Assembly: GCA_001275005.1 (NCBI GenBank)
Contig: JWZX01001755.1
Location: 1-24,054 of the forward strand
DNA length: 24,054 bases
Origin: Chrysochromulina tobinii
Lineage: Eukaryota > Haptophyta > Prymnesiales > Chrysochromulinaceae
Direction of reading: 5' to 3'
The translations under genes were made by a program, and so were the position numbers. Positions 2,615-21,821 of the stretch are shown one piece after another. The number at the start of each line of letters is the position of its first letter. Within the stretch, counting starts at the first letter, position 1. The notes beneath the pieces were generated by a model. That model was not told where the DNA came from. It saw only the letters and a program-made list of their open reading frames with translations, and did no database searches.

Positions 2615-4576
2615 ATGCCCCCCAAGGCCCCCACGTCGGCTGCCCAAAGCGCAGGAGCGCCAATGTCAACGCTGAGCGCCGCCGACCGTCGACGGCTCCT
2701 GCACTTCGATTCGTCCGACGAGGACGATGAGCCCCCTGTGAAGCCGCGCGCGCCCATCCCGGCGGCGTTCCGAGCGGCTCGAACAACCGACGGCCTGAGC
2801 AGTAAAAAGGCTGACGGCCGCCTGATCTCGCGCGACGCCGACGCCGTAGCGCGATCCGAGAAGGACATCCCGGCCACGCGCAGCCATGCCAAGGCAGCGG
2901 CCCCCGCGGCTCAGGCGGGCGAAGAGGAGAACCACTCACCGAAGCCGCTACAGCGCGCCGCTCGGGACCGTGGGCTGGGCCAGCGCAAGCAACCGCTCGC
3001 CCCTCGGCGCATCGACTCGGAGTGCTCTTCTTCGGTACCAGCGACGGCTCCAGCTTTGATCGTCAAGATGGATGCGAAGATGGATGCGAGCCCTGTCGAG
3101 AGACGCGCAGCAGCACGGGATTCCTCGGGTGAGACGCCGACACCGCCCCGCTCGGCGACCACCCTGGCCCGAGAGCTGGAGGCGACGGAGGCACGGCTCA
3201 CAGAGATGGCCCGCCTGCACGAGGCGTCCGTGGCGGAGGCCGCCTCGCTGCGCGCGCAGCTCGAACAGGCTCGCGCGCGCATGCTCGAGGCGCACGCGCA
3301 GTCGGTGCGTCAGATGCAGCGCGAGGCTCTGTCGGCCCTCGAGCAGCATGAGGAGCGTGCGGAGACGGCGGAACGGCGGCTGGCGGAGGCGTCCATTGAG
3401 CTCGAGGCGCTGCACGGGCAGCTGTCGGACGCGGCGCGCACGCTCGCTCAGGAGCGTGCCGCGCGTGAGGCCGCGCAGAGCACACACGAGGCCGAGCGCG
3501 AAGCACTGGCGCTGACGCACGCGGCGGCGCTGCGGGGGCTGAGCGAGCGGAGCCTCGAGGATCAGCGCGCGATGCTCGAGGAGCAGCGTGCCGCGATGAG
3601 TGCGCAGCTCGAGCTTGCGGAGAGCGAGGCGGCGCTGCAGGCCTCGCTGGCGAGTCGACTGTGTGCCGAGGCCGAAGAGGTCGGGCGGCGGCTCTGTGAG
3701 ACGATGAGTGAGCGCGACGCCGCCATCCATAGGCGCGAGCAGCTCGAGGAGGAGGTGAGTGCGGCCACGGCGCGCACGCAGCTCGCCCGCGCGGCGAGCG
3801 AGACGCTGCGCGAGGCGCTCGATACGGCGCGCACGCAGCTGGCTGAGGGCACCTCGCAGCTGCAGGCCACCGAACTTGAGCTTCGCGCCACTCGCGCCGA
3901 GTTGGGCGCCGAGCTGGGCGCCGCTCTCGCCGAGTTGGGCGCCGCTCGGGCCGCCGCTACCGACACGGCGCTGGTGCACGAGGCGGAGCTCGAGGCGGCG
4001 CGATCGGCGCTCGCCAGCGCGCATGCGGACTTGCATGCGGCGCGCGCGCAGCTCGAGGCGACCGGCGAGGAGCTCGCGATCTCGCGACGCGAGCTCGAGG
4101 CTACCGGCGAGGAGCTCGCGATCTCGCGACGCGAGCTCACCGCCTCCGACGAAGGCCTGGCGACGACGCGGCGGGACCTCGCGACGTCGCTCGAGAGCCT
4201 CGCCACAGCGCAGGAGGCGCTCGAGATGGCGCTCGCAGGCAAGGCAGCTGCCGAGTTGGCGGGCGGCTCGGCGGCCGACGCGGCGCGGCAGGCGTCGGAG
4301 GCGCTCGACGCGGCGCGGCAGGAGGCGCTCGACGCGGCGCGGCACGCGTCGGAGGCGCTCGACGCGGCGCGGCAGGAGGCGCTCGACGCGGCGCGGCAGG
4401 CGGGCGAGGAGGCAGCTGCGTCCGAGGCCCGGTTCGCGGCGGAGCTCTCGCGCCTTCGGGCGGCGTTGGAGGTTGGTGAGCTCGAGTGGGAGATTGCTGA
4501 GAGGGCCCGGGCGGGGGCGGAGGCAGCCAAGGAGGCCGCCGAGGCGGCGGCGGCGAAGGCGGAGGCGGAGGCGGTG

Positions 4577-4608
<32 letters not shown>

Positions 4609-7600
4609 AGAGGCGGCGCAAATAGCCCACGCGCGCTCCGAGGTGGAGGTGGCCGCGCTCGCCGAGCAGCTCGCCTACAGTGAGCGTGAGCGCCGTGCCG
4701 AGCAGCTCGCTGCCCAGGCCGCCCATGAGGCTGTCGGCAGCGCGAGGCTGGAGAGCGTGCAGCTTCGCATGCAGGTCACCGAGCTGGAGGCGGACCTGTC
4801 GGAGCTGAGCGCGGCGGTGGAGGCGGAGCGCTCGCGCCAGCTCATCGAGATGTCGGTGCTCAGCACGGCGCTGGACGAGAGTGAGGCGCGTGCGGTGGAG
4901 GAGGCGTGCGAGGCACGTGGCGCACGTGGCTTGCTCCGTGCCGCGCGCGAGGAGTGCGAGTTGGCGCGGGAGCTCTTTGAAAAGGCGGCGCTCGACCGCG
5001 GTGCAGAGGCAGCTGCGAGGGAGGAGGCGGAGGCGGCGAGGGAGGCAGCCGAGGCCCGCGTCGTTACACTCGACTCGGACCTGGATGCATGGCGAGCTAT
5101 TCTTGCAGAGTCGAGAGCGCAACTGACGGCACTGAGCAAGGCAGTGGAGGCAGCGGAGGCTGGCAAGGCGGCGGCGGAGGCGGCGAGGGAGGCGGCTGAG
5201 AGCGGGCGAAAGGCGGCGGAGGCTACGGCGGAGGCGGCGACGGAGGCTCGTGACGCTGAGCTCGTGAGCCTCGCAGATGAGTGCCAGCAACTCCAGATCC
5301 AAGTGCGCGCGAGGGATCGTTTGGAGGAAGAGGCCCGTGAGCGGAGGGCGGCGGCGGAGGAGCAGAGGGCAGCCGAGCAGAGGGCGATGGCACGGGAGTC
5401 CGAGGCACAGGTCGCGCGAGCCTTGGCGGATCGAGACGAGGCCCTCGCGCAGCTTGGGGAGGCCGAGGCGGCGATGCAGGCAGCGGAGGAGGCACGGGAG
5501 GCGGCTGAGGTAGCGAGGGACGACTTGCAAGCTGCCCTCCGCGCGGAGTGTCAGGCCCACCGCCGCTCCAGAGAAACCCTCGAAGCGCAAAAGAGCCTTG
5601 CTCTCGCGCGCGCGACGGCGGCTGCCGTGGCCGCGTGCGCGGAGGTGCGCGAGGAGCACGAGGCTGCACGTGTCGAGCGTGCAGCGGCGGAGGAGCAGCG
5701 GCTGATTAAGCACGAGGCGGAATGGGCCGAGGCGAGGGCGGAACGTACGCGGCTCGAGAGCAGCCTCGAGATCGAGATTGCCTCGAGATCGCGGCTCGAG
5801 AGCAGCCTAAGCGACGCGCATCGTGCGGCCGCGCGGGCAGCGGAGCGGCAGGCGGAGGCCGAGGCGCGCCAAGCGGAGGTTGAATCTCAGTTGCGGGAGG
5901 TTGAATCTCAGTGGCGGCAGCAGCAACGGCAGTTGCACGAGAGGATCCAACGGCTGGATGAGCAACGGCACGCCGCCGACGAGCGTACCACTCTCGTGAC
6001 GGAACAAGCGGCGGCCGCGGCGTCGGAGGCGGCCGAGGCGGTACGCGCGGCGGAGAAGCAAGCCGAGGCGGTGCGCGTGCAGCTCGAGGCGGTGCGCGTG
6101 CAGCTCGAGGCGGCACGGGCGCAGTCCACGGAGGCGTTACGTGCCGCGGACGAGCACAGAGGGAGGCTCGAGGAGAAGCTCGATCGTGCCACGGCGCGCG
6201 AGCAGCGGGCGGAGCAGAGGGCAGACGCGGCCGAGGCGCGGCTGGAGACGGCGGTCGCGCGCGAGAGGAAGGAGGCCGAGCGCGTGCTGGAGCTCACGGC
6301 CAGCCTCGCGAGCGCCCGCCAGAGCGCGGAGAGCGCTCTCGCGAGCGCCCGCCAGAGCGCGGAGAGTGCTCGGCAATCACTGGAGCAGGAGCTCATCAAG
6401 GTACGTGCGACAGCCACTGCCGCCGAGGCGGCGCGTGTGCAAGCTGTCGACGAGGCGCGACGCGCGACGGACGAGGCGCGACGCGCGACGGACGAGGCGC
6501 GACGCGCATCAGACGAGGCTTGCAAGGAGGCGAGGGCACGTGCTGAGGCGGCACGGATTGCCGACGAGGCGCGCCGTGACTTAGAGGCTGCTCGATGGCA
6601 GCAGCAACTGCAGCAGCAGCAACTGCAGCAGCAGCAACTGCAGCAGCAGCAACTGCAGCTACAGCAGCCACAGCAGCTACAGCAGCTACAGCAGCAACGG
6701 GATAGCCGGCTAAGCACGGCGGTGGCGGAGGCGGTGGCGGAGGCGGTGGCGGAGGCCGAATCGCAATGGAAGGCGGAGCGACGACGGTTACGGACGGAGC
6801 TCGCCGATGCGCTCGAGAAGGCCAAGGCCGAAACGGCCGCTGCGCAGGCGGCGCGCGACACACGGGTGCAGACCGCACAGGCGAGCGCTGAGTTGGTCAG
6901 AGCGGAGGCACAAGCCGAGATGCAACGCAAAGAGGCGAGGGCGCGCGAAGTGAAGCAACGCGAGGCCGCCGAGCAGCGCGCGTGCGCAGCCGAGGCGCTC
7001 ACCGCGGCGGCTGAGCAGCGGTTTGCGGCGGCTGAGCAGCGATGTGCCGCGGCCGAGCAGCGGGCGGCAGCGGCGGAGAGAGCGGTGGAGGCACTCGAGC
7101 GGCGGCTCGAGGCAGCTGAGCGCCATGCCGAGCGCGAGGCTGCGACGCGGCTCGCCACCGCCCTGGCTGCGGCCCGTGCGGACGCTGAGGTACAGATGGG
7201 CCTGAGGGTTGATGCGGCCTGCCGCGACGTACGCATTGCGTGTGAACGGGCCTCTACGCAGCAGCTGCACGCGCTACAAGCCGCCGCGAACTCGGCTTGT
7301 GTCGTCGCAGAGGACGGTCGCCAGGCGGCCGAGGCGGCGTGTGCGGCGGCGGAGCGTCGTGCTTTATCGGCCGAGGAGGCGCGCGTGGCCACTGCCGAGC
7401 ATGCCGAGAGGGCCCTTGGCGAGGCACGGCGGGAGCGCGACGCCGCACTCAGCGAGCTGCGCGCCGCCGCGGTGGCGGCCCACCAGGTGGCGCTCGATAC
7501 GGCGCTCGAGCGGAGCGGGCGGGAAGCGGACGTGATGGTGCGCGTGCTCCATCGGGCTCTCTGATGACCTCTTGATGGCCTCTGATGACCTCTCGATTGC

Positions 7601-8242
7601 CTCTCTCATCAGGTGCGCGTGCTCCAGCGAGCTCTCGACGAGGAATCGGGGCATGCGGCCGCCGTGCTGGCAGCGGAGCGTCGGGCTGCTCGTGACAACG
7701 CTCGAGCCGATCTGGACGCCTGCCGGGCAGTTGTGACCGAGGAGGCGCTGCGCGAGGTACGCGCGCGCGAGGCCGCGCTCGATCGGCGCGCCGAGGAGCT
7801 TGCGAATTGGGCACGTACCTCCACTGTGGCGATGCGTCGGGTGCTCGCTCGAGAGCGCGCCGACCGAGTGCAAGGGATGGACCGGGCTTTGGAATCTGGA
7901 TCTGGATCTGGATCTGGATCTCGAGTGCAAGGGATGGACCGGGCTTTGGAATCTGAATCTGGATCTGGATCTGGATCTGGATCTCGAGTGCAAGGGATGG
8001 ACCGGGCTTTGGAACGAGCCTCAGACCATGCTTGCGATCTCGCGGAGCCGCCGCGCGCACAGGGCCTGCCTGCTGGCGTATCGGCAGGCATGCCGGCAGC
8101 TGTGCCTGCAGTGCCTGCTGGCGTGCAAGCACCTCGTGCCCTGCCGGGGTCACTCTCACGGATGATCGAGGAGGTCCGGTCGCGCTGCTCGAACGAGCTG
8201 CATGTTCTCGGGGGGGCGACGGCAACGGGTTCGAAAGCGTGA
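2615..8242 (+). CDS. Giant Ala/Glu/Arg-rich coiled-coil protein (exons 2615-7537 and 7613-8242)
   Basis: The spliced product is about 1,850 residues. Residues 1-180 are a low-complexity, probably disordered head with an acidic DSSDEDDE stretch. From about 185 to 1,800 the sequence is almost unbroken heptad-type helix dominated by Ala, Glu, Arg, Gln and Leu, with many internal duplications (EELAISRREL twice; ALDAARQ several times; RRATDEA three times). A Gln-rich tract occupies about 1329-1361. Exon 2 adds a coil, three copies of RVQGMDRALE separated by Ser-Gly repeats, and an Ala/Pro-rich tail. The first ATG after the divergent promoter was taken as the start. Splicing at 7537/7613 is phase 0 and restores VRVLQRALDEE. 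A structural or scaffold role (centrosome, flagellar root, Golgi or nuclear envelope) would fit such a coil, but no named domain is recognisable and function is unknown. The 3' end at 8242 could change if a further exon exists. Confidence 0.75.
6599..6697 (+). repeat. Gln-rich CAG/CTG-type coding repeat
   Basis: Thirty-three codons, nearly all Gln with periodic Leu (units of LQQQQ, 15 bp CTGCAGCAGCAGCAA), inside the giant coiled-coil ORF. The unit keeps the reading frame. It is a likely length-polymorphic site. Confidence 0.85.
7538..7612 (+). other. Introner-like intron, 75 bp, in the giant coiled-coil gene
   Basis: GT-AG intron ending CTCTCATCAG. Its first 24 bases (7538-7561) match the first 24 bases of the next exon (7613-7636) with 2 mismatches. 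The remaining 51 bp are TGATGACCTC-type repeats. Splicing is phase 0; without it the ORF stops at the first TGA of the repeat (7562-7564). Confidence 0.8.
7865..8014 (+). repeat. Coding minisatellite, 57/63-bp units x3
   Basis: Three copies of a 30-bp segment encoding RVQGMDRALE start at about 7865, 7922 and 7985. They are separated by TCTGGA hexamer runs of different length (Ser-Gly repeats). All spacings are multiples of three, so the frame is kept. Confidence 0.85.
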
Positions 8243-8437
8243 TGCAGTACAACTTACGCCACCATGAAGCTGTGTGGACCGACGACGTCATTGAGTGGTC
8301 TCACGGCCAGGTCCACATACGTCGCACCAGCCACCACGGTAGGACGTAGGAACCTAGACCGCCAATCCGCCATGCGTGTTCGTTCTATCTGAAGTCTATG
8401 CTGGGGATGACGCAGCGCGCCGACTGCGGCGAGACTT

Positions 8438-8917
8438 TTGTTTGTGCTGCTCTGCAAAATCGTGGGGAAAAAGTTGAAGGATTCGTCAAAACAAAACGCG
8501 AGCACTTTTCCCGACGGACGGTCGTCGCGGTCATCAAACGCTCGTGCTGTCGTCATGGTGAAGACCTCACGATGGTGCCTATGGCACACCTCACGATGGT
8601 GCCTATGGCACATGTGTCCGACGCAACTGTTTGGCCCGTCGCGCGTGAACAAGGTTCTTGACGAGGTGGCGCATTTGGATCCTGCTCTGGCATCGCCGCC
8701 GCACAAGGAGGACTTGCGCTGCCGAAAGGAGCTGTTTCAATACAGCGTGGAGCAAGAGCAGCCGGCCGCGGCCGAGTGTATTGAGTGTGCTGCCCTCCAG
8801 AAGCTGCAGATGCAGACTGGCCGCAGCGTGAAGCGGCAGCACACAACCCCCTCAAAGATTGCTATGCCGGTGTGCCCGAAGGTCAGCTCATGGTCCTGCA
8901 GTTATCTTCCAGTGTGA
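8438..8917 (+). CDS. Doubtful hypothetical ORF, 159 aa
   Basis: The second half, from about 8640 (RVNKVLDEVAHLDPALASPP and on), has codon use and composition compatible with coding: many CAG, AAG, GTG and CTG codons and a charged helical pattern. The first half looks random and contains the translated 24-bp direct repeat (TSRWCLWH twice). It could be one exon of a gene whose structure I cannot resolve, a further exon of the upstream coiled-coil gene, or chance. No domain is recognised. Confidence 0.22.
   Translation: MFVLLCKIVGKKLKDSSKQNASTFPDGRSSRSSNARAVVMVKTSRWCLWHTSRWCLWHMCPTQLFGPSRVNKVLDEVAHLDPALASPPHKEDLRCRKELFQYSVEQEQPAAAECIECAALQKLQMQTGRSVKRQHTTPSKIAMPVCPKVSSWSCSYLPV
8564..8611 (+). 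repeat. 24-bp tandem direct repeat x2
   Basis: Two adjacent perfect copies of ACCTCACGATGGTGCCTATG plus GCAC, at 8564-8587 and 8588-8611. No function is evident. Confidence 0.85.
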
Positions 8918-9118
8918 TATCATCCTTTACGAATCGTTTGCACCCCCAGCCCACTCGCCAAACCATCACCAATGACAACCACCAATTGCAAGAAGTTCGC
9001 TTTGTTGCGATTGCTGCGCACCCACGGCGGTCACAGTGGAACACATCAACATGGCCGCCGCGCGCCGATGGCCGTCATGGGATACGATACACGATACGAT
9101 AGACATAGAGCAAGAGGA

Positions 9119-9132
9119 CACACACACACACA
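9119..9132 (+). repeat. CA dinucleotide microsatellite
   Basis: Seven CA units in the non-coding interval, just after the GATAC-rich stretch at 9081-9102. Confidence 0.85.
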
Positions 9133-9905
9133 TCGTGACGATGGCTGTTGCATAATGGGAGGGTCGGTTGTTAAGGTCGGTTGTACTAGCTACTACGTAG
9201 TTAGAGGGGCAAGGAGAGCTGTGGGGCTGTGTTGAGCGTCAAACAAGCGCCGTCGTCGATGACTCGGTGTTCGCGTCACAGGGTCGGATTGAAGGGTGGG
9301 GTGTCAGGTGGGGTGAGGGTCTGACTGTCCTCGGTTGAGTCTTGAGAAGTCACCTTGTCACACCGCGCACGACATTTTAAGCACGACGCTGCACCGGCGC
9401 CTCGACGCGACGGCACGAGCCGAGCGGTCTCGAGCTCTCGACGGCTGACGGGCCGGCAGCCCGGAGTCTCCCGAGACTGAGTCTGAGCGTCGAGGCCGCG
9501 GCCTCGCCTCCCGCACGACCGCCAAGTCGATCCTCTGGCGACCGGTCCGGGAACACGTCGACCGAAACGCCAACGCGGAAGCGGAACCGCCAACGACGCA
9601 GCTCGCAGGCGGTTTTCTCCGGACTCCGCTCAGAACCTGAACCAGATCTCCCCCGCACACTGACACAGCCAAAACGATTAGTATTCACCACTTGCTGATA
9701 TTTTCACCTCCCGTCCGATCAACAGAACCCGGTGGCCGCGAGTAGCCGGCCTCTAGCGATTCCGATTGCACTAGAGAGCACACCCTTCTGAACTTGTGTA
9801 CACCGTATACACTCTCTGACCAGTAGGAGAGAAGTGCCGAGCTTCTCGGTGGCGGCACGGCGCCACCGCAGATGCGCACGGCACGCTCCGCGCGGTGCTG
9901 CACGC

Positions 9906-10325
9906 TCAGTAGAAGCGGCCGCCCTTGCCGCCTGGCTTGCTCGCCTCGGCGGCCCTCTTCTTGATCGCCTCCTCCTCCGCCTTGCCCTTGACGGGCGAGA
10001 TCTTCGTGCCCTTGAGATCCTTCGGAATCCTCCTCATCTTCGATTCCGACATGCTCTTGACCCAGCGCACATCGGCGCGGATGGTCATCCCGATTTTCTT
10101 CATCACGCGGATGCCACGTGGCAGGCTTTTCTTCTCGAAGGGGAGGCAAATGAGCGAGATCAGGATGCAGAACACGGGCAGGATGACCGTCAAGCTCAGC
10201 GGGAACCATTCTGTCATAAAGGTGCTGAACGGCGTGTCGCCGAACACAGAGGTGTACAACTCTTCAGCCGGTGTCGCATGGACGGCGCTCACCGCCGAGT
10301 CGTAGGTGCTAGAGATGAAATCCAT
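9906..10325 (-). CDS. Small single-pass membrane protein, 139 aa
   Basis: A compact intronless ORF with convincing amino-acid composition. Residues 1-38 form a polar N terminus. About 39-62 (WFPLSLTVILPVFCILISLI and on) form one strongly hydrophobic membrane segment. The rest is a basic tail (KKSLPRGIRVMKKIG, then Lys/Arg-rich) ending KPGGKGGRFY. No cleavable signal peptide is obvious, so the membrane segment is probably a signal anchor, with the basic tail on the cytosolic side by the positive-inside rule. I do not recognise the family. The start is the first in-frame Met, preceded by about 460 bp of AT-richer intergenic DNA that contains CTTGA tracts. Function is unknown. Confidence 0.75.
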   Translation of the reverse strand: MDFISSTYDSAVSAVHATPAEELYTSVFGDTPFSTFMTEWFPLSLTVILPVFCILISLICLPFEKKSLPRGIRVMKKIGMTIRADVRWVKSMSESKMRRIPKDLKGTKISPVKGKAEEEAIKKRAAEASKPGGKGGRFY

Positions 10326-10789
10326 GGGACGGCCGTCTGCGGACGGCGGGAGGGGGGCATGCGGTGTGGCGCACGTGAGTCAAGGACCTGCCTGGGCAGC
10401 GGGGAATTGGCGTGCCGAGGCTCACAGGCTTGCAGGGTGTGACGCTCGCCTCCGCCTCACGAGACTGCAGCCAAAGACCAAAATGGCTTGGAAGTTTACC
10501 TCAGCTGACGAAATGGCGCGAAAGAACGGAACTTGAGAAGATGCAGAGCATAACAACATAGACCGGGGATAGAGTGATGAGTGTAATGTGGGTGAGGCTA
10601 CTGTTCGTGTATCCGATACATGTACATGTCCCCCCCTTTTTGCTACATAGAACATGTGCCGCTTCCGTGTTGTCAAGTCAAGTCTATACATAACAACAGA
10701 CAAGCATACGGAAGCCTATGTGTGTTTCGGAAGACATGACTTGAATTGCTTGACTTGACTAGTCATTAGAAAAGCGAACATATCCGGAT
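10326..10789. promoter_or_regulatory. Divergent promoter region with CTTGA tracts
   Basis: This interval lies between divergent starts at 10325 (minus) and 10790 (plus). A GTCAAGTCAAGTC tract at 10672-10684 reads GACTTGACTTGAC toward the minus-strand gene. A second tract at 10737-10762 (with CTTGACTTGAC) points to the plus-strand gene, ending about 28 bp before its ATG. It is AT-richer than the genes. A palindromic ACATGTACATGT lies near 10618-10629. Confidence 0.5.
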
Positions 10790-13053
10790 ATGCTGGACCG
10801 CGTAAGAGAAAGGACTAATGCGGTCGCTCTACGCGTGGCCGCGACCGTCGACGAAAAGATGGCCAAGGTCGACGAGCAGATCGACAAGCTCGCCGCCTTA
10901 CGCCGCATCAGTAGCAGTAGCAGCGATAAGGAAAAGGACGCGGAGAAGCCAGAGGCAGCGATGGCCTCAAGGCCGCCGCCGTCGGCACCTTCGGCGAGCG
11001 CGCCGAGCGCCACGCCGAGCGCGGCCGACGCCAGCGCAGCCGCCAAGGCGTTTGAGAGCGTGCCCAAGGCCGAGCTGGTCTCGCTCCTCGTCAAGACCAA
11101 CGGGCGGTTGAAGCAGGTGGAGATGCGGTATGCCGAGCTCAAGCAGCTGCACGAGACGACGCTCGAGGAGAAGCGGAAGCTCGTTGCGACCCGCGGGCGC
11201 GCCGGAGCCTCCCTCGAGGTCGAGCGCGCCGAGATCGAGACGTCGCTGCGCCAGGTGTACGAGGATCGGATGGCCGAGCTCGAGGAGACGGTGGGCTCGG
11301 CGCAGCAGCTCAAGAAGCAGCTGCAGCTGGAGCTCGCGCACGCGACCACGCAGCTGCGCGACCAGAGCGCCGCGCGCGAACGCTTCGAGCGCGCCGCCGC
11401 CGACTCGGCCGCCGAAGCCGACCGCCTGCGCGCTCAGCTCAAGGAGGTGTCACGCGCAGCAGAAGCGGCGACGCGCGAGGCGGCGGCCTCGCGCGGCGCG
11501 GCGGCGACCGAGCACGCGCAGCTGCTCGAGCGCGTACTGCGCCTTGAGGGGGAGCTCGCGGCGGCGGGTGGCGGCGCTGGTGGCGCTGCCTACGACGCGT
11601 CCGCCGGCGCCGCTGCCGGCGGCACTCATGATGGCGCCGGCGGCACTGCGTCGGCGCATCTGGAGCAGAGGCTGCGGGCGGTAGAGGCAGCCCGCAAGGC
11701 CGAGCGCGAGGCGGCTCTTGCCAACCTGCAGCGCTCGGCCGAGCAGCTCGGCGCAGGCGAGCGGGCGCTCGCGGAGGCGCAGCGGGCCACGGCCGCGGCC
11801 GAGGCGCGCGAGGCGGCGGCGTCGGCCGCGTCGGCGGCGGAGCTGCTGGCGGTGCGCGATGAGCTCGCGGCCAAGGACAAGGCGCTGTCGCGAGCGCTCT
11901 CGAACTACAAGGAGGAGGTGGGCCGATGGGGTAAGGAGCGCAGCGCGCTCGAGCAGGCGCGCAGCGACGCCGAGGCCGAGGCCGAGCGGCGGGTGCGGCA
12001 GACGGCACTCGAATGGGAGGCAAGAGTGGCACAGGCGCGCGTTGCGGGGGAGAAGGCGGTGGCCGAGGCTCGGATCGAAATGGAGGTGCGATCTCCCCTG
12101 ATGACCCTTGATTGACCTTGATTGCCACTGATGAGCTCCTCGTTATGCTCGATCGGGTAGGCCGAACTGCTCATCACCCGATCGACCGCCGCCACGGAGA
12201 GCGGCGAGGCCAAGACGCTCGTCGAGAACGCCACGCGCCGTGCGACGGAGCAGGTGAAAGCCGCCTTGATGACCTCTGATGACCTCTGATGACCTCTGAT
12301 GACCTCTGATGACCTCTTGATTGCTCCCCTCATCAGGTGAAAGCCGCCGTGGCGGCGCGCGACGCGGCCATCGCTGAGGCGGCCGAGGCCAAGGAGAACG
12401 CCCAGCGCGACGCGGCGGCCAAGCTGCGCGTGTCCGAGGCGGCGATGCACCGCGCGCAGGAGAGCGAGGGGCAGCTGCTGCGCGAGCGCGACGAGCTCGC
12501 TCGCAAGCTGATGGCCCTGCAGCGCGAGATGCACGAGCAGTCGCAGCACGCGGCGCAGCAAGCGGAGCGATGGAACCAACACGGCACCTCTGCATCGGAG
12601 CACGAGGCGAGGCTCGCGCGGCTCCAGTCGCAGCTCGACGAGGCCGAGATCGGCTACCGGTCCGCGCGCGCCGTCAAGGCGACGCTCGAAGCCGAGCTGA
12701 GCGCGCTCAAGCAGCAGCGGGACGAGGCACTCGAGGCCGGCGTCGCGCTCCGGGCGGAGTTAGCGGCCGAGCGGGCGGACCGTGAGAGTGCCATCGCGGT
12801 CAAGGAGAAGGACGCGGCGAGCTGGAAGGCGAAGTGGAAGGCGCAGGCAGCGCAGCATACCGAGGCGCAGGCGCAGCTCGAGGCAGCCGAGAAGCGCGTG
12901 CTCAGCGAGGCGGCGGACCATGCGGCGGCGCTGGCGACCAGGGACGCGAGATTGCGCGAGCTCGAGGCGCAGCTGGATTCGGGGCGTCCGCAGGAGCAGC
13001 ACATGTTCCTGATGGCGCGCGAGCAGGCGAGCTGCACAGGAGGCGGCCACTGA
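10790..13053 (+). CDS. Golgin-like coiled-coil protein (exons 10790-12085, 12161-12253, 12337-13053)
   Basis: The spliced product is 701 residues if it ends at the TGA at 13051-13053. It opens with a short helix (MLDRVRERTNAVALRVAATV) and a Ser/Pro/Ala linker. A segment from about residue 93 (VPKAELVSLLVKTNGRLKQV, then EMRYAEL) resembles the N-terminal motif of GRIP-type golgins. After that it is nearly continuous coiled coil with one Gly/Ala-rich hinge near residues 260-285. Both splices are phase 0 and restore heptad sequence. No GRIP domain or membrane anchor is seen. The final TGA is the first base triplet of a TGATGACCTC array that marks introns elsewhere in this window, so the true C terminus may lie in a downstream exon, possibly joined to the oxidase at 13240. 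The golgin assignment is inference from pattern; a generic coiled-coil tether is the safer description. Confidence 0.7.
12086..12160 (+). other. Intron, 75 bp, with decayed introner-like ends
   Basis: GT-AG intron with donor GTGCGATC and acceptor GATCGGGTAG. The core contains CTGATGACC and CCACTGATGAG. It lacks the CTCATCAG end of its relatives at the acceptor, but CTCATCAC occurs 15 bp inside the next exon. Splicing is phase 0 and gives MEAELLITRST. A perfect 10-bp inverted repeat (TCGATCGGGT at 12149-12158, ACCCGATCGA at 12176-12185) spans the acceptor. Confidence 0.65.
12254..12336 (+). other. Introner-like intron, 83 bp, with exact flanking duplication
   Basis: The intron opens GTGAAAGCCGCC and the next exon opens with the same 12 bases. 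Including the preceding CAG on both sides, 15 bases are identical (12251-12265 and 12334-12348). Between them are 71 bp of TGATGACCTC repeats ending CTCATCAG. Splicing is phase 0. Confidence 0.85.
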
Positions 13054-13239
13054 TGACCTCTGATGACCTCTGATGACCTCTGATGACCTCTGATGACCTC
13101 TGATGACCTCTGATGACCTCTGATGACCTCTGATGACCTCCCTCATCAGGTGGGTCGAGGGGGGCACCGCGGAAGCCCTCTGATGACCTCTGATGACCTC
13201 TGATGACCTCTGATGACCTCTGATGACCTCCCTCATCAG
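13051..13239 (+). repeat. TGATGACCTC minisatellite with 90-bp tandem duplication; probable intron
   Basis: Nine perfect TGATGACCTC units (13051-13140) end in CCTCATCAG. A 31-bp copy of the next exon's start follows (13150-13180), then five more units and a second CCTCATCAG (to 13239). The exon start is repeated exactly at 13240-13270. The block 13091-13180 is a 90-bp tandem duplicate of 13181-13270. The two CATCAG/GT junctions look like 3' splice sites, which implies an intron that ends here; its donor could not be identified. Confidence 0.8.
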
Positions 13240-15899
13240 GTGGGTCGAGGGGGGCACCGCGGAAGCCCTCGCCGACGCCCTCGACGTGATCCAACTCGCG
13301 CGGCGGACGGCGGCGGGGACGGTGGGCGCCGTTCCGGGCACCTCCTCCGGCGCGCGCGCGCCGTCCCGGGCGCCGTCCCGGCGGCGCTCGCACACGGGCT
13401 GTGATGAGGCCATCCGCGACGCGGCGCTGATGATGGCCTTCATTCGCTCCTCGGCGCAGGGTCGCACGCTCGCGCCTTCAGCGCTGTACGGCGGCGTCAT
13501 CGCGCTGCCACGCTCCCAAATTTGGGACGCGAGCGGAACGTTCACGTTCACAGCCGCGGCGCGCGTGCCGTGCATGACAGAGGCGGAGGTGCAACTGCTC
13601 CTCAAAGCGTCCAGCGTACCGGGCGCCGTGCTGCGGCCATCGGTGATTCGGCCTCTCGGCTGTGGGCACTCGTGGAGTGGTTACAGCGCCGTACCGGGCG
13701 CCGTGCTGCTCGACATGACGCGCATGGACCGCGTGCTTGCTGTCGATGTGGTCGGCGGTCCTGTGGCGCGGCATGCAAGTGCTCACCACGGCGCCGGCGC
13801 CGGGCCGAGTGTGCTTGTGCAGCCAGGCCTGACGCTGCGTGATCTGCGCGCCGTGTTGGCGGCGCACGGGTACACGCTGCCCAGCTCCCCCTAATGGCCT
13901 CTGAGTGCCTCTGATGACCTCTGATGGCCTCTGATGGCCTCTGATGACCTCTGAAGACCTCTGATGACCTCTATAAAGACCTCTGATGACCTTTATAAAG
14001 ACCTCTGATGATCTCTAATGACGATCCTCATCAGGTACACGCTGCCCAGTTGGCCTATGCTACTTGACCAAACAGTTGGAGGTGCGATAGGGCCGTCCCT
14101 AGGCTGATGACCCCGAAGACCTCTGATGACCCTGATGACCTCTGATGACCCCCGATGTCCCCTGATGACCTCTGATGACCCCCGATGGCCCCTGATGACC
14201 TCTGATGACCCCTCATGACCTCTGATGACCACTGATGACCACTGAAGACCTCTGATGACCCTGATGACCTCTGATGACCTCTGATGACCACTGATGACCT
14301 CCCTCATCAGGTGCGACGCTTGGGAGCGGCTCTCACGGCTCGTCCACACGCGACGGCACCACGTGCGATCTCGTGACCGAGATCGCGCTCGTGCTGCCCG
14401 ACGGGTCCATCGTTACGTTACGCGATGAGGAGGAGGAGGAGGAGGAGGACGACCGCACTGATGACGACCGCAATCCAAGGCCATCTCCGGGCGCCGTCCC
14501 GGGCGCCACGCCGCGCCTCAGCCTTCGGCTTCGCGACGCGCGCCTCTCTCTAGGCTTGCTCGGCATCGCCACCGCCATCCGGCTGCGCTGCGTGCGGCAG
14601 TACTATGTCCGTCGGACCGTGCATGCAATGAGCGTGACCGAATTTGGCAACCGGGCCGAGGCGCTCGCTGCGAGCTTCCGACACTTGTGAGAATGCTCTT
14701 CTGTGCCTCTGAGTGCCCTCCGAGTGCCCTCCGAGTGCCCTCTGAAAGCCCTCTGAGTGCCTCCGAGTGCCTCTGAGTGCCATGGATGGCCATTAATAGC
14801 TTCCTGATGGAGCTTGATGACGGCGCTAATAGCTTCCTGATGGAGCTTGATGACGGCGCTAATAGCTTCCTGATGGAGCTTGATGACGGCGCTAATAGCT
14901 TCCTGGTGGAGCTTGGTGACAGGTGGGTGCTGTGGGAGCTCGGGCAGGACGCGCTCGCCTTTTGCGCCCTCGAGGACGTGGGCGAGATTGCAGCTCCCGG
15001 CGCGGAACGGTATGATGGCGAGAATTGGTATCGGGGTGAATTGGTATGACCACTGATGACCTCTGATGACCTCCCTCATCAGGTATGATGGCGAGAATTG
15101 GTATCGGGGTGCACCCCCGTTTGAAGCTCCGGGTGCGCCCGCGACGGCGCGCGTGTCGTCTCGCTCGAAGAAGGCAATTGGGCAAATGCCGACGGAGCCG
15201 GGCAGCGAGGGCGCCGTGCCGGGCGGTGAGGGCGCCGTGCCGGGCAGCGAGGGCGCCGTGCCGGGCAGCGAGTGCGCTGTGCAGGCCATCGAGGGCGCCG
15301 TACCGGCCATCGAGGGCGCCGTACCGGGCAGTGAGGGCGGCGCGCGCTGGGTGTCGATGCAGTACGCCTTCCCTCGCGAGCGCCTGGTAGACTTACTACA
15401 CGCGCTTTCCGCTTGGCACGGAGCCCAAATTAGGAACGAGGGCTCGTCCAAATTAGGCAGCTGCAGCAGCGTCCTAAATCGGGTCGTGGAGCTCAAGTTT
15501 ATTGGTGGGCCGGGCGCGGCGCTGTGCGGCGCGAACGCCAACGGCCCCGTCGTCTGTGCCAACGTCTTGTGGCGTCTCCGACCGCACGAGATGACGACGC
15601 TCATCAGCCTCGAGGAATGCATGCGTGGGCTGGGCGGCTGCCCGCACCTGGGCAAGCGCCACGCGCCCCTCGAGATCGGCGAGATCGAGGACGAGATCGA
15701 CCGCGAGCTCGGCGAGCCTCGCGAAGCACACGCGAGCCACGGCGGCACGTTTGAGCGGCGCATGCAACGATTCGCGGCGCTCGTCGCCCAGATCGATCCT
15801 AACGGTCGCCTCGGGGGCCTCGGTGCGTTGAGGCAGCAACCTCCGCACCAAGCCGAACAAATCGACGAGCAGCAATCTCCGCAGCAATCTCCGCGTTGA
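13223..15899 (+). CDS. FAD-linked sugar-1,4-lactone oxidase-type oxidoreductase (5 exons)
   Basis: Exons are 13223-13869 (probably from 13240), 14035-14081, 14311-14686, 14923-15009 and 15083-15899; joined they give 657 codons in one frame. About residues 100-370 form a PCMH-type FAD-binding domain. RPLGCGHSWSGY supplies the His (H149) expected to bind FAD covalently; VLVQPGLTLRDLRAVLAAHG, DQTVGGATLGSGSHGSSTRD and LSLGLLGIATAIRLRCV match the family order. The C terminus (VSMQYAFPRERLVDLL, LGGCPHLGKRH, IDPNGRL) matches the ALO/gulonolactone-oxidase cap domain, with HLGK (about 574-577) where the family has HWxK. Such enzymes oxidise aldonolactones such as L-galactono- or L-gulonolactone to make ascorbate-type products; the exact substrate cannot be read. 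Seven-residue GSEGAVP repeats are inserted at about 425-471. The start is uncertain: MTSLIR is read from the repeat array, and the gene may be fused to the upstream coiled-coil gene. Confidence 0.8.
13870..14034 (+). other. Introner-like intron, 165 bp, in the oxidase gene
   Basis: GT-AG intron ending CCTCATCAG. Its first 15 bases, GTACACGCTGCCCAG, equal the first 15 bases of the next exon (14035-14049). The middle is TGATGACCTC/TGATGGCCTC repeats with two AT-rich TATAAAGACC variants. Phase 2; splicing gives HGYTLPSWPMLL. Confidence 0.85.
14082..14310 (+). other. Introner-like intron, 229 bp, in the oxidase gene
   Basis: GT-AG intron made almost wholly of TGATGACC-type decamers and ending CCTCATCAG. 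The flanking match is short: AGGTGCGA (14080-14087) before and AGGTGCGA (14309-14316) after, suggesting a decayed longer duplication. Phase 1; splicing joins QTVGG to ATLGSGSHGSS, exactly the family motif. Confidence 0.85.
14687..14922 (+). other. Intron, 236 bp, with two different tandem repeats
   Basis: Donor GTGAGAATG and acceptor TTGGTGACAG, phase 2. The first half is GAGTGCCCTC/GAGTGCCTC units and the second half is a 33-bp repeat. Unlike its neighbours it has no flanking duplication and no CTCATCAG end. Splicing gives SFRHLWVLWELGQD. Confidence 0.7.
14794..14921 (+). repeat. 33-bp tandem repeat, about 3.9 copies, within intron
   Basis: The unit begins TAATAGCTTCCTGATGGAGC; copies start at 14794, 14827, 14860 and 14893, and the last runs into the acceptor. 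The array is open in the frame that continues into the next exon (NSFLMELDDGA repeated), but the preceding exon has a TGA before it. Confidence 0.88.
15010..15082 (+). other. Introner-like intron, 73 bp, with 29-bp exact flanking duplication
   Basis: The first 29 bases of the intron (15010-15038) are identical to the first 29 bases of the following exon (15083-15111). Only 44 bp lie between: a GTATGACCAC stretch, two TGATGACCTC units and CCTCATCAG. Phase 2; splicing restores ERYDGENWYRGAPP. Confidence 0.87.
15197..15337 (+). repeat. 21-bp coding minisatellite (GSEGAVP)
   Basis: About six to seven in-frame copies of a 21-bp unit containing GAGGGCGCCGTGCCGGGC, with AIE and GGE variants. It lies between the FAD-binding and C-terminal domains of the oxidase, so it probably forms a flexible linker. 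Related CCGGGCGCCGT pieces occur at about 13361, 13618, 13692 and 14486 in the same gene. Confidence 0.85.
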
Positions 15900-18008: not shown

Positions 18009-21000
18009 ATGCGACTTGCCATGGCGCAAGGGTGCACGCCGTTTGTGCGTCGACGCTCTTTGGTACTTTCGATGGCGTTCATGGCATCAACTGCAGGCCT
18101 TCCTCTGGCGAAGGACTCTCCGGACCTTGCGCTTCACGTGGACGGTGTCGTTCCTGCGCTGCACGTGGACGGCGTCGTTCCTCGTGTTGTGCCTGAGAAC
18201 GTGACGGTCACAGTCACAGGCGATGACGGGGTCGCTGCGATGGTCCCCCAAAATGAGATGACCAATCTCCGCGTGATGCCGAGCAATCACATGGTGTATC
18301 CCTGGGACAAGGACGTGGTCACGACGGAGCAAGGATGGCCGTGCAAGACTGACTACGAGAACGACACGCCGACCAAGGAGTGCGAGGGCTGGTGCGGCAA
18401 GCCGATGAATGAATACAACGGCTGCGACATGTGCCGATGCGCAGCATGCCCGCCCGAGACGTGCCCGCCCAACCATTTCTACAACGTGACGGACGTCTTA
18501 GTCGATGTCGTCGATCAGCAAATCCGGCAGGAGATGGGCGCACGGAAGGCCGAGGCGAAGGCCAAGGCGGCCTTGGTCGCCCTCGAGAAGGAAAAGCCCC
18601 AGGCTGCCCCGGGTTCACTCTCGTTCACCTCGGTCGGCGGCGTCGAGGGATCGCGCGATGGCCTGCGGTTCGTCGATGCACCGCTGCTCGTTCACCCCCC
18701 ACATACTGTCTCGGCGCTCGTCTCTGCGATCATGGCGACGTTCTTCAGGTAAGGACGCGCGATGGCCTCATCGGACGGCCCTCCGGGTCACTCTCCCCTG
18801 ATGACATCTCTCAACGTCCCTCTCTGCCTCGTATCCGCCTCGGATGACATCTCCCACTGCCTCTCCCCTCGGCGTCTCTGAATGCCTCTCCCCTGATGAC
18901 ACATCTCTCATCATCCCTCACTGCCTCAGAATGCCTCTCCCCTCGGCGTCTCTAACTGCCTCTCCTCTCGCCCTCCCCTCTTTGCGTGCGCCGCAGCATC
19001 CTGTTTGTGATCGTGACGCTCTGGTGTGCATACGGCGGCTGCCCCCTGCTGCGGCAGCGGGAGGCAAGCGACATGAAGAAGGTCCCCAGTAGCGAGCCAG
19101 CCAGCCCCAGCAGTGCGATCAAGAGGAGTAGTTCGGCTCCGCTCCTCGGGGGCAACCCCAATAAGGCAACTCCTGATGAGGAAGCCGCGCAGGCCGACAA
19201 GGCGGCAGTGGGCGTCGAGAGCGCACCCACGCCGGCCAAGAGCTGGTATGAATGGTTCACGGGCTCCGTTCCAGCGCCATCAAGCCCAGCGCCTGTGATC
19301 GGTGTGCCTGTGGCCGATGCCCAAGCGCCCGTCACTGCGCCCAGCGGCGGCGACGAGCCGCGCTTCAAGCTCAACGAGCGCGTCGAGTGCCGCGACGACG
19401 GCAAGAAGTGGTGGGCCGGCACCGTCGTGTCCGTCGACCCGCTCCTGGTGCAGCCCACTGGAGCCGCGTGGACCAAGGGGTTCACGTGGGACGAGGTGCG
19501 AATTCCCATCCAGGGAGGAGCTCCGACGTCGCCGTCGTTGACGTCATCGACGGCAGCCAAGGACGCGCCGGCGGTGGCCGAGAAGGTGGCGGCGGAGCCT
19601 GCGAAGGCAGCTGCGGCGGCGGCTAAGAAGGCTGCGGCGGCCGGCGAGGCGGCGGCCGGCAAGGCAGCGGCGGCCGGGGAGGTGGCGTCGGCTGAGGGGA
19701 AGAATGTCGTCCAAAGTCTCTTCGGTGGCATCGGTGCGATCTTCGGCGGCGGGGCCGACAAGCCGCGCTTCAAGCTCAACGAGCGCGTCGAGTGCCGCGA
19801 CGACGGCAAGAAGTGGTGGGCCGGCAAGGTCATCTCCGTCGAGCCGCTCCTGGTGCAGCCCGACGGCGACGCGTGGACCAAGGGGTTCACGTGGGACGAG
19901 GTACGCCCCCCCAAACCGGCTGCCGAGGGCGGCGTTCCGACCGACACGAAGCCCAAGGCGGCCGAGACGGCAACGAGCGCGGAGAAGATGGGTCCCGAGG
20001 GTCCAAGCGTTGTGCAGCAGGGCGTTCAAGCCGTCGGGCAAGGTCTGCAGACCGTAGGCCAAAATGTAGGCCAGGGTGCTCAGCAGGGCGTTCAAGCTGT
20101 CGGGCAGGGCCTGGAGGCGGTCGGTGGTGCCTTGGCCGCCATCTTCCGCGGCGGCGACAAGGCGCTATCCCCAGTGGAGGCGGCGGCGGCTGAGAAGGCG
20201 GCGGTCGAGAAGGCGGCGGCGGCGGCGGCTGAGGCTGAGGCGTTCAAGGCGCGGGTCGCTGAGCTCCAGCGGAAGCAGGCGGCAGGCAAGCTGAGCGCCG
20301 CTGAGAAGGCGGAGCTTGCCGGTAGCGAGACGAAGTTGACCTCGCTCTTGGCAGCGGCCGAGAAGGCGGCGGCCGAGGCCGCCGCGGCGGCCGAGAAGGT
20401 GGCGTCGGCCGAAAAAGCGGTGGCCGACAAGGCGGCGGCCGAGGCGAAGGCGGCGGCTGAGAAGGCGGCGGCCGAGGCGAAGGCAGCGGCCGGCAAGGCG
20501 GCGGCGGCCGAGAAGGCGGCGGCCGAGAAGGCGGCGGCCGAGAAGGTGGCGGCCGAGAAAGCGGCGGCCGAGGCGAAGGCGGCGGCTGAGAAGGCGGCCG
20601 CGACCGAGAAGGCGGCGGCCGAGAAGGCCGCGGCCGAGAAGGCGGCGGCGGTCAAGAAGGCAGCCGACGAAGATGATGAAGACGTTGACTTTGATCTCTT
20701 TGACAAGAAGGCGGCCGAGAGGGTGGCGGCCGAGAAGGCGGCGGCCGAGGCGAAGGCGACGGCGGAGAAGGCGGCCGCAGCCGAGAAGGCGGCGGCGGCC
20801 GAGAAGGCGGTGGCCGAGGCGAAGGCTGCGGCCGACAAGGCGGCGGCCGAGGCGAACGTGGCGGCCGAGAAGGCGAAGGCGGCGGCCGAAAAGGCGGCGT
20901 CGGCCGAGAAGGCTGCGGCCGAGAAGGCGGCGGCCGAGAAGGCAGCGGCCGAAAAGGCGGCGGCCGTGAAGGCGGCGGCCGAGAAGGCGGCGGCCGAGGC

Positions 21001-21821
21001 GAAGGCGGCGGCCGAGAAGGCGGCGAAGGACAAGGCGGCGGCTGAGAAACGAAAGCTCTCGTTCCAGAGGGCGGCGGCGTCAGCGTCCGAGAAGGCGGCG
21101 ACGATCGAGACGGCGTTCCAATGGGCGCTGCGCATGCTCAAGAATCACGACGAGCGCAAGGAGTGAGCTCGCCGTTGAGATTGCCGCCGATGAGGATCCT
21201 TGATTGCCTCGGATGATGATCGTTGATTGCCGCCGATGATTCTCAATGGACGTGGCTGATTCTCGATGGACGTGGCTGATTCTCGATGGACGTCGCTGAA
21301 TCTCTTGCTTGTCGCCACGCATTGCTTGCTCGAGTGCCGCCCTCGTCCTCCCTCATTAGGCTGAGTGCCTCCCTCATTAGGCTGAGTGCCTCCCTCATTA
21401 GGCTGAGTGCCTCCCTCATTAGGCTGAGTGCCTCCCGCATTAGGCTGAGTGCCTCCCTCATTAGGCTCAGTGTCTCCCTCGTCCTCCCCTTTTCAGGTAC
21501 GCGCGAAAGGCCTTTACCGAGGTCGACGTGGACGGCTCAGGGGCCATCGACCACACGGAGAGCGTGCTGCTCGTTCAGAGCATTGCCGAGAAGATGGGCC
21601 TGCCGCTGCCCACCACCGAAAAGATCCTGCAGCTCGTCAAAAAGATGGACACATCTGGCGACGGAGATCTGCAACTGGGCGAGTTCCTCTCGTTCTTCAA
21701 GGCGGTGCTCCTCTCGGCGGTGCGCCGCATCTGCGTGATCAAGATCCAGAGCTTGGTGCGCCAAAATCTCGCCAAGGCCTTCGTCGCTCGGATCAAGAAG
21801 CGGGTCGTGGACCAGGACTGA
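18009..21821 (+). CDS. Single-pass membrane protein with Cys-rich ectodomain, Tudor/SH3-like repeats, Ala-Lys helix, EF-hands and IQ motif
   Basis: Exons 18009-18748, 18997-21162 and 21497-21821 join to 1,076 residues. A signal peptide is visible (RRRSLVLSMAFMASTAG). Then come ALHVDGVVP twice, possible N-glycosylation sites (NVT) and a Cys-rich stretch near 118-158 (ECEGWCGKPMNEYNGCDMCR). One membrane segment lies at about 236-260, completed only after splicing (MATFFSILFVIVTLWC). The cytosolic side has two near-identical 48-residue repeats at about 368-415 and 503-550 (RFKLNERVECRDDGKKWWAG) that look like small Tudor/SH3-type barrels. A long AAEKAAAEKAA helix follows (about 641-945). Two canonical EF-hand loops (979-990 DVDGSGAIDHTE; 1020-1031 DTSGDGDLQLGE) and an IQ-type motif (about 1050-1067, IKIQSLVRQNLAKAFVAR) end the protein. 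It could tether a membrane to internal structures under calcium control; that is inference. Confidence 0.82.
18749..18996 (+). other. Intron, 248 bp, pyrimidine-rich, in the membrane-protein gene
   Basis: Consensus donor AG/GTAAGG and acceptor GTGCGCCGCAG, phase 2 (AG/C gives Ser). The body has loose repeats of TGCCTCTCCCCTCGGCGTCT. It interrupts the codons of the transmembrane helix. No flanking duplication. Confidence 0.82.
19358..19905 (+). repeat. Duplicated 143-bp coding module (two copies, offset 405 bp)
   Basis: Segments 19358-19500 and 19763-19905 are nearly identical in DNA and encode the two RFKLNERVECRDDGKKWWAG modules. Their close similarity points to a recent duplication. Confidence 0.85.
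20178..21060 (+). repeat. Ala/Lys/Glu-rich coding repeat (GCGGCGGCCGAGAAG-type)
   Basis: Irregular 12-18 bp units built from GCGGCGGCCGAGAAG encode AAAEK-type helix for about 300 residues. One acidic interruption (DEDDEDVDFDLFD, near 20665-20705) breaks the pattern. The antisense strand is open over the same region, which is a composition artefact. Confidence 0.85.
21163..21496 (+). other. Intron, 334 bp, in the membrane-protein gene
   Basis: Donor GA/GTGAGC and acceptor CCCTTTTCAG, phase 2, joining the Ala-Lys helix to the EF-hand exon (ERKE/YARKAF). It contains three copies of a 20-bp GATTCTCGATGGACGTGGCT unit (about 21238-21298) and then six to seven 21-bp units. Confidence 0.85.
21348..21480 (+). 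repeat. 21-bp tandem repeat of acceptor-like sequence, 6-7 copies
   Basis: The unit is CTGAGTGCCTCCCTCATTAG plus G. Each copy contains a pyrimidine-rich CCTCCCTCATTAG, similar to the CCTCCCTCATCAG 3' ends of the introner-like introns. The array sits directly upstream of the real acceptor at 21496. Confidence 0.88.

Follow-up and report, generated by a model that had tools for sequence, protein, structure and literature searches.

How introns arise is a long-standing question, and the haptophyte Chrysochromulina tobinii harbors a family of decamer-array introns that makes intron birth unusually easy to study. The introners already published from its genus, likewise an intron-creating repeat family in a haptophyte, are described in the part of the survey that treats them as having an element-borne 5' splice site and 4-bp duplications, unlike the family considered here (PMC9860276). 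For Symbiodinium microadriaticum the same source reports introners with 4-bp duplications and clear terminal inverted repeats (TIRs). In Daphnia, direct repeats at the opposite ends of neointrons have been explained by staggered breaks (PMC4202315), and the introner elements of Amoebophrya, which are also invasive, carry direct repeats 3-5 nt long and inverted repeats of 8-20 nt, and their splice sites are non-canonical (PMC7789003). A further report, which models insertion at breaks, examined 213 introns and describes direct repeats at or close to the borders of every one, 4-30 bp long with a mean of 11.4 (PMC11782384); because direct repeats near intron borders are so widely reported, the permuted controls used below matter.

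Decamer-array introns in the window and their host genes

The window (the whole 24,054-nt stretch of C. tobinii DNA analyzed here, contig C778 of the genome) contains 53 matches to the decamer TGATGACCTC with at most one mismatch, against a mean of 1.2 in 100 shuffles. On re-reading of its letters, the intron coordinates given by the first-pass annotation are correct, with acceptors of CTCATCAG followed by GT; such ends fall at 7612, 12336, 13149, 13239, 14034, 14310 and 15082. Its observation that the start of each intron repeats the start of the next exon also stands, over 24 bp (2 mismatches), 12, 15, 6 and 29 bp for the introns in order and over 31 bp at 13240.

All of the genes and introns concerned are on the plus strand. 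A long coiled-coil-like gene at 2615..8242 (exons 2615-7537 and 7613-8242) hosts an introner-like intron of 75 bp (7538..7612), composed of the 24-bp duplication with 2 mismatches and a 51-bp core ending CTCATCAG; the stop of the unspliced ORF (2615-7564, with no match in Pfam) falls inside the decamer array, and the spliced reading is open to 8242. Two introns lie in a second coiled-coil-like gene (10790..13053). That at 12254..12336 (83 bp) combines a 12-bp exact duplication with a 71-bp core, and that at 12086..12160, in which no duplication was found by eye, has degenerate units, ends GATCGGGTAG (GGGTAG) and splices in frame. Exons 10790-12085, 12161-12253 and 12337-13053 join into an open frame whose sole stop is at the end; splicing of 7538-7612 and 12254-12336 leaves the frames of both coiled-coil genes open. 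At 13050..13239 are two decamer arrays, each ending CTCATCAG, separated by a 31-bp segment (13150-13180) that is repeated exactly at 13240; since the first array (13050-13149) has no copy of this segment upstream of it, 13050-13239 is the least certain of the introns.

The FAD-linked oxidase gene (13241..15899, its 5' limit provisional) has four introns. Three are introner-like: 13870..14034 (165 bp; a 15-bp exact duplication and a 150-bp core with TATAAAGACC variants), 14082..14310 (229 bp; a duplication of 6 bp only) and 15010..15082 (73 bp; a 29-bp exact duplication and a 44-bp core). Taken by itself, the 6-bp duplication at 14082 lacks significance, because the permuted set often reaches its score; the junction of this intron is backed by protein homology. 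The fourth intron, at 14687..14922, contains 33-bp tandem units and ends GGTGACAG rather than CTCATCAG, in the same gene as CTCATCAG introns. An end in CTCATCAG thus marks the introns originally listed, but not those at 12086-12160 and 14687-14922.

Removing 13870-14034, 14082-14310, 14687-14922 and 15010-15082 yields an open FAD-linked oxidase frame, in which the FAD_binding_4 match rises from 37.7 bits (unspliced ORF 13223-13894) to 71.4 bits; an ALO match to the same gene is weak and below its cut-off. Aligned to seven of the eleven relatives found, the spliced protein shows no gap at any of the four junctions, and the relatives lack the second copy of the duplicated words there; the proteins with which they continue across the intron sites may come from intronless genes, transcripts or spliced models. 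Relatives of the oxidase also carry PF01408, PF22725 and PF02894, which we take to be dehydrogenase-type domains; none of the three was found in the ten window ORFs scanned. At other loci in the genome, matches to Asparaginase_C, EamA, Fn3-like, neurobeachin-type beta-propeller, DEAD and Exo_endo_phos domains cross spliced junctions, those to DEAD and Exo_endo_phos just under the curated cut-off. Two of the ten spliced proteins profiled match no family, and in a partial helicase (L038) domains flank the junction on either side with none across it. The asparaginase intron can be followed further: the reading of another deposited contig (P0121), which at 99% identity is probably conspecific, enters this intron as well, and three relatives (P0122-P0124, 67-80%) continue through the site uninterrupted. 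As introners do, the inserts lie in exons and, judging from sequence, splicing would restore the protein.

Several other features of the window may be recorded here. Tandem repeats with 63-bp and 15/33-bp units occur inside long ORFs at 7865-8014 and 20350-21048, and at 21347-21480 a 21-bp unit, CCTCCCTCATTAGGCTGAGTG, is repeated in tandem roughly six times; it is a CTCATTAG version of the acceptor module, and further repeats precede it closely at 21179-21304. For the eIF3d gene the first named matches by E-value are to Coregonus (47%), Strombidinopsis (59%), Haptolina ericina (66%) and Diacronema lutheri (51%). No known RNA family scored above threshold in the window, a phage search with 12200-13300 gave no match, and a search of viral contigs with TGATTGCCTCCCTCATCAGGT gave 0 matches.

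Genome-wide abundance, duplicated targets and insert anatomy

In the genome searched (53.15 Mb, 2,253 contigs), CTCATCAGGT is present at 2,407 sites (1170+1237), against 45 (24+21) for the reversed pattern, and TGATGACCTCTGATGACCTC at 843+804, against 0 in the control; exact GATTGCCTCCCTCATCAG occurs 991 times, with GT next in 666 and no GT next in 325. The search for further copies proposed in the first-pass annotation thus finds them elsewhere, and the CTCATCAGGT count excludes a repeat confined to the window. The sampled introner loci are spread over many contigs, with similar introns at unrelated sites of one genome; since most were picked for CTCATCAGGT, for an array or for one of two longer end variants, class frequencies are biased toward these types.

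Distinct CTCATCAG ends sampled numbered 218, of which 163 have GT next. For 76 of these 163 the start of the following exon recurs upstream with its match anchored precisely to the junction (score at least 12), against 2 of 798 permuted-flank pairs, and in the smaller set of ends lacking a following GT upstream copies were found in 19 of 53, against 10 of 253. For 72 of the 163 GT ends there is no duplication of score 9 or more within 350 nt; these may be old, or made by another route. Removal of later tandem copies and array-containing repeats from 77 cases with a score of at least 11 left 55 single-copy cases, in which the duplication is 11-44 bp long (median 20, the floor being imposed by the score) and the core 20-208 (median 62). 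The duplication begins GT in 51 of these 55, and G occupies -1 in 43; in the 27 where it is exact, the target, the insert and the two junctions are legible base by base, and this proportion is consistent with the earlier suggestion that the repeat was recently active. Smaller, earlier tests of duplication and microhomology pointed in the same direction.

The position of the repeats and the right end of the arrays vary. In a scan with free offset (88 matches scored), 47 begin 0-4 bases before the AG/GT boundary, 27 extend at least 6 bases to its left, mostly as whole-unit tandem copies, and 14 begin 2-26 bases to its right. When arrays were scanned with no requirement for CTCATCAG, clean flanking repeats (score at least 15, free of array motif) were found at 81 of 269, against 3 of 1057 permuted flank pairs; a looser scan, with the threshold lowered to 12, found them at 131 of 278, the permuted pairs giving 84 of 1,090. 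Of the 81, 34 have CTCATCAG and GT at the right end, 6 another AG and GT, 9 AGGT within the repeat, and 2 an AG from the repeat with a GT from the core; 13 have GC or GA donors only, 2 have antisense sites only, and for 15 no frame-restoring splice was found. The claim that the core brings the 3' splice site therefore describes the usual case, but not the minority of arrays that have another right end or take AG or GT from elsewhere. In one array with a 19-bp exact duplication and no CTCATCAG (L158, C688:840-1340), the AG and a GC donor would both derive from the duplicated exon (AAACAG/GCGC).

The typical insert is an array of approximately 10-bp units (TGATGACCTC / TGATTGCCTC and variants) that usually ends sharply at 3' in the module TGATTGCCTCCCTCATCAG; the 5' end of the cores is not fixed. 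At 73 GT ends (loci fetched for CTCATCAGGT, plus the window), an A stands at -17 in 99%, inside TGAT and followed by a pyrimidine-rich stretch, and YTNAY fits this region in 55. This A is the predicted branch point, and, as the repeat unit itself resembles a branch-point motif, the arrays may offer several. Insert starts could be phased in 26 of the 55 single-copy cases, among which all ten phases of the unit occur; the other 29 begin with irregular sequence. In the 26, the end of the duplication overlaps the predicted preceding repeat by a mean of 1.8 nt, against 0.45-0.53 in two null models (0/5000 each); flank-templated filler (5/29 vs 62/812) is not clearly shown.

The orientation of the inserts was evaluated with a codon-score test restricted to 25 clean sites, at which both 120-nt flanks are motif-free, all other sites being dropped. 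The sense frame outscores the other strand at 24 of these, and is open in 21, against 6 for the other strand; 15 of 20 are in phase 0. A broader test of 85 sites, whose flanks may hold other arrays, did not discriminate: the plus strand scores better in 54, and the best frame is open in 44 (plus) and 45 (minus). Frame-restoring GT..AG pairs at the start of the duplication were found for 35 of the 81 arrays in sense and 0 in antisense, and frame-restoring splice sites at any offset for 51 in sense and 8 in antisense. A sense bias of this kind is expected from selection, and so is by itself no proof of an RNA route.

Sequence and protein homology together establish an insertion origin for what is predicted to be a spliceosomal-type intron family. 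As read from the DNA, it is a family of introner-like introns in which the core would supply the 3' splice site and the duplication the 5' splice site; the original reading as an introner-like, intron-generating repeat is supported by genome-wide dispersal, anchored duplications and protein homology at the junctions.

Copying between loci and the route of insertion

A 22-base core segment outside the repeats has an exact match in C19 and two in C395, the latter in tandem and joined by a further copy with a mismatch. The two cores are identical over 50 bases, after which their flanks, both beginning GTACGG, diverge; a non-repeat segment common to both shows that sequence has been copied from one locus to another. 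In a comparison of 71 GT ends from the window and loci L001-L080, spaced by 160 bp or more, pairs on the same contig and strand have a core similarity of 0.626 (88 pairs), against a null of 0.541 (0/10,000), which would reflect either new copies arising from neighbors or later homogenization by gene conversion. Similar cores also tend, weakly, to share the first bases after AG/GT (P 0.013, 0.039 and 0.049 at three thresholds).

Tandem growth takes several forms. Pairs of CTCATCAGGT in tandem with 10-120 bp between them number 400, and tandem copies of duplication plus core are common. At one locus (L058, C54:4711-7720), exon units of about 24 nt appear by eye to be repeated together with a short intron, and splicing would add eight residues per copy to the protein. 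At two others (L111, C953:7470-8560; L112, C1953:18000-18820), units of GTACCC... plus core, ending CTCATCAG before GT, form arrays with a 54-bp period, possibly chains of zero-length exons or recursive splice sites.

These short spliceosomal-type introns were probably made by insertion during the repair of staggered breaks, with an existing, often neighboring, introner being copied. A staggered break in the target exon would have its overhangs filled in, giving duplications of variable length; the gap would be bridged by the introner copy, joined on the 5' side through a few bases of microhomology and on the 3' side at the AG/GT boundary. The insert would then have on either side one copy of a target-exon piece of 11-44 bp, mostly starting with GT, and a splice from the GT of the first copy to the AG of the insert would remove one copy together with the insert and restore the coding sequence. 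Selection would retain sense, splice-competent copies, and recombination between duplications could later give tandem copies of duplication plus core; neither a transposase nor fixed element ends would be required. Duplication through fill-in at staggered breaks is established in mouse cells, according to the portion of the report that concerns it (PMC8355091). Both signs of such repair, variable direct repeats at opposite intron ends and microhomology at the junction, were found here, and the lengths of 11-44 bp speak against a fixed-cut transposase, to which the first-pass annotation preferred staggered-break repair or tandem duplication, as far as a mechanism can be inferred from them. Random fragment capture does not predict that most copies should end sharply at 3'; such a boundary would need either selection or GT microhomology, for the latter of which there is weak evidence. 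If repair and not a transposase is the maker, a portable 3' splice module and broken DNA are all that intron gain on a mass scale requires.

Two RNA-based or partly RNA-based routes can be set beside staggered-break repair. Retroposition of the non-LTR type, in which a nick in the target primes reverse transcription of an RNA that ends in CTCATCAG (target-primed reverse transcription), predicts inserts that are precise at 3', truncated at 5' and bordered by target duplications of variable length; SINE and LINE retroposons likewise have a variable duplication, 5' truncation and a fixed 3' end. The mostly precise 3' junction, the variable 5' end (ten phases, n=26), the 5' microhomology and the variable duplication agree with it, and RVT_1 domains are present in the genome (26 matches, 22 above cut-off). 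However, none of the 12 RVT_1 loci read (of 26; 2.5-3.7 kb each) has an array with the end module, isolated units being found in five and a lone CTCATCAG in one; arrays with other right ends show equally clear flanking repeats, so that the retroposon traits fit the CTCATCAG class only; and similarity between neighbors is not expected of a freely diffusing RNA. We consider this route fairly unlikely. It is unlikely, too, that the excised intron is the mobile form, its free 3' end (...CTCATCAG-OH) serving as template where a gene close by is nicked or broken. Copying would halt part-way, for example near the branch point, and only the 3' splice module would be inserted, leaving the duplicated target to provide the 5' splice site; a waste product of the spliceosome would in that event seed new introns without a transposase. 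DNA copying by way of AG/GT microhomology would be an alternative with the same outcome.

The first-pass annotation took CTGATGA and TCATCAG for inverted-repeat ends, which would make the family a non-autonomous TIR DNA transposon, or MITE-type introner. The two heptamers are indeed reverse complements, TIRs are described in 72 of the 177 assessable families of the introner survey (PMC9860276), and antisense-type ends (GAGGYMATCAGGT) occur 121 times, against 0 in the control. But CTGATGA is one phase of the repeat, the 26 phased copies starting in all ten; the 5' ends have no fixed sequence; and duplications of 11-44 bp in 55 cases leave no constant short target duplication. All 8 of the 121 antisense-type ends read proved to be AC followed by one unit of an ordinary array, which was the opening unit in 4 and an internal one in 4; antisense copies may still occur among them. 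Four of the eight arrays finish in CTCATCAG before GT and have their flank duplicated, oriented as usual. The fixed-end TIR/MITE reading was rejected on the variable duplications and non-fixed 5' ends, and a TIR transposon seems highly improbable: the length and variability of the duplications, the microhomology at 5', the mixture of right ends and the similarity of neighbors argue against it and fit staggered-break repair. Pure tandem genomic duplication of AGGT-containing exon pieces, with later minisatellite expansion inside, would account for the tandem CTCATCAGGT pairs and for AGGT inside the flanking repeat in 9 of 81 arrays; yet AGGT turns up nearly as often in antisense (8/81, in register at any point of the repeat), which places the sense count near chance, and one end module at many sites together with a non-repeat core common to two loci marks a dispersed insert. 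The core-less read-through in relatives also disfavors it, because the core is not exon sequence, and we judge it very unlikely. That the arrays are not introns at all, but coding or non-coding minisatellites or assembly artefacts, is scarcely credible: low-complexity arrays do assemble poorly and the genome is in 2,253 contigs, but the arrays contain stops, domains are extended or rebuilt on splicing, junctions are gapless against relatives, and another deposited contig has the same intron.

Comparison with known systems

Among the literature matches listed, no published description of a decamer-array introner family was found. In the account it gives of its filtering, the introner survey removed low-complexity families by manual inspection (PMC9860276), so that a family of this type could be missed, and this mode of intron gain could be commoner than thought. 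In splice-site origin there is a likeness to Symbiodinium microadriaticum, where the 3' splice site is likewise described as insert-borne and the 5' splice site as coming from the target duplication (PMC9860276); here the duplications are 11-44 bp, there is no fixed 5' end and the body is made of tandem decamers. Unlike the introner elements of Amoebophrya, the introns here are mostly GT-AG and have no fixed inverted-repeat ends. They differ from SINE and LINE retroposons in that no partner element stands beside the 12 of 26 RT matches read and in that some copies have other right ends. The Daphnia repeats, given as 4-12 bp (PMC4202315), are shorter than those described here, which go with an insert that recurs at dispersed sites and has a conserved module at its 3' splice site. 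Compared with the direct repeats reported around introns generally, as that study presents them (PMC11782384), those of C. tobinii are anchored at the splice site, have been judged against permuted flanks and are tied to one recurrent insert.
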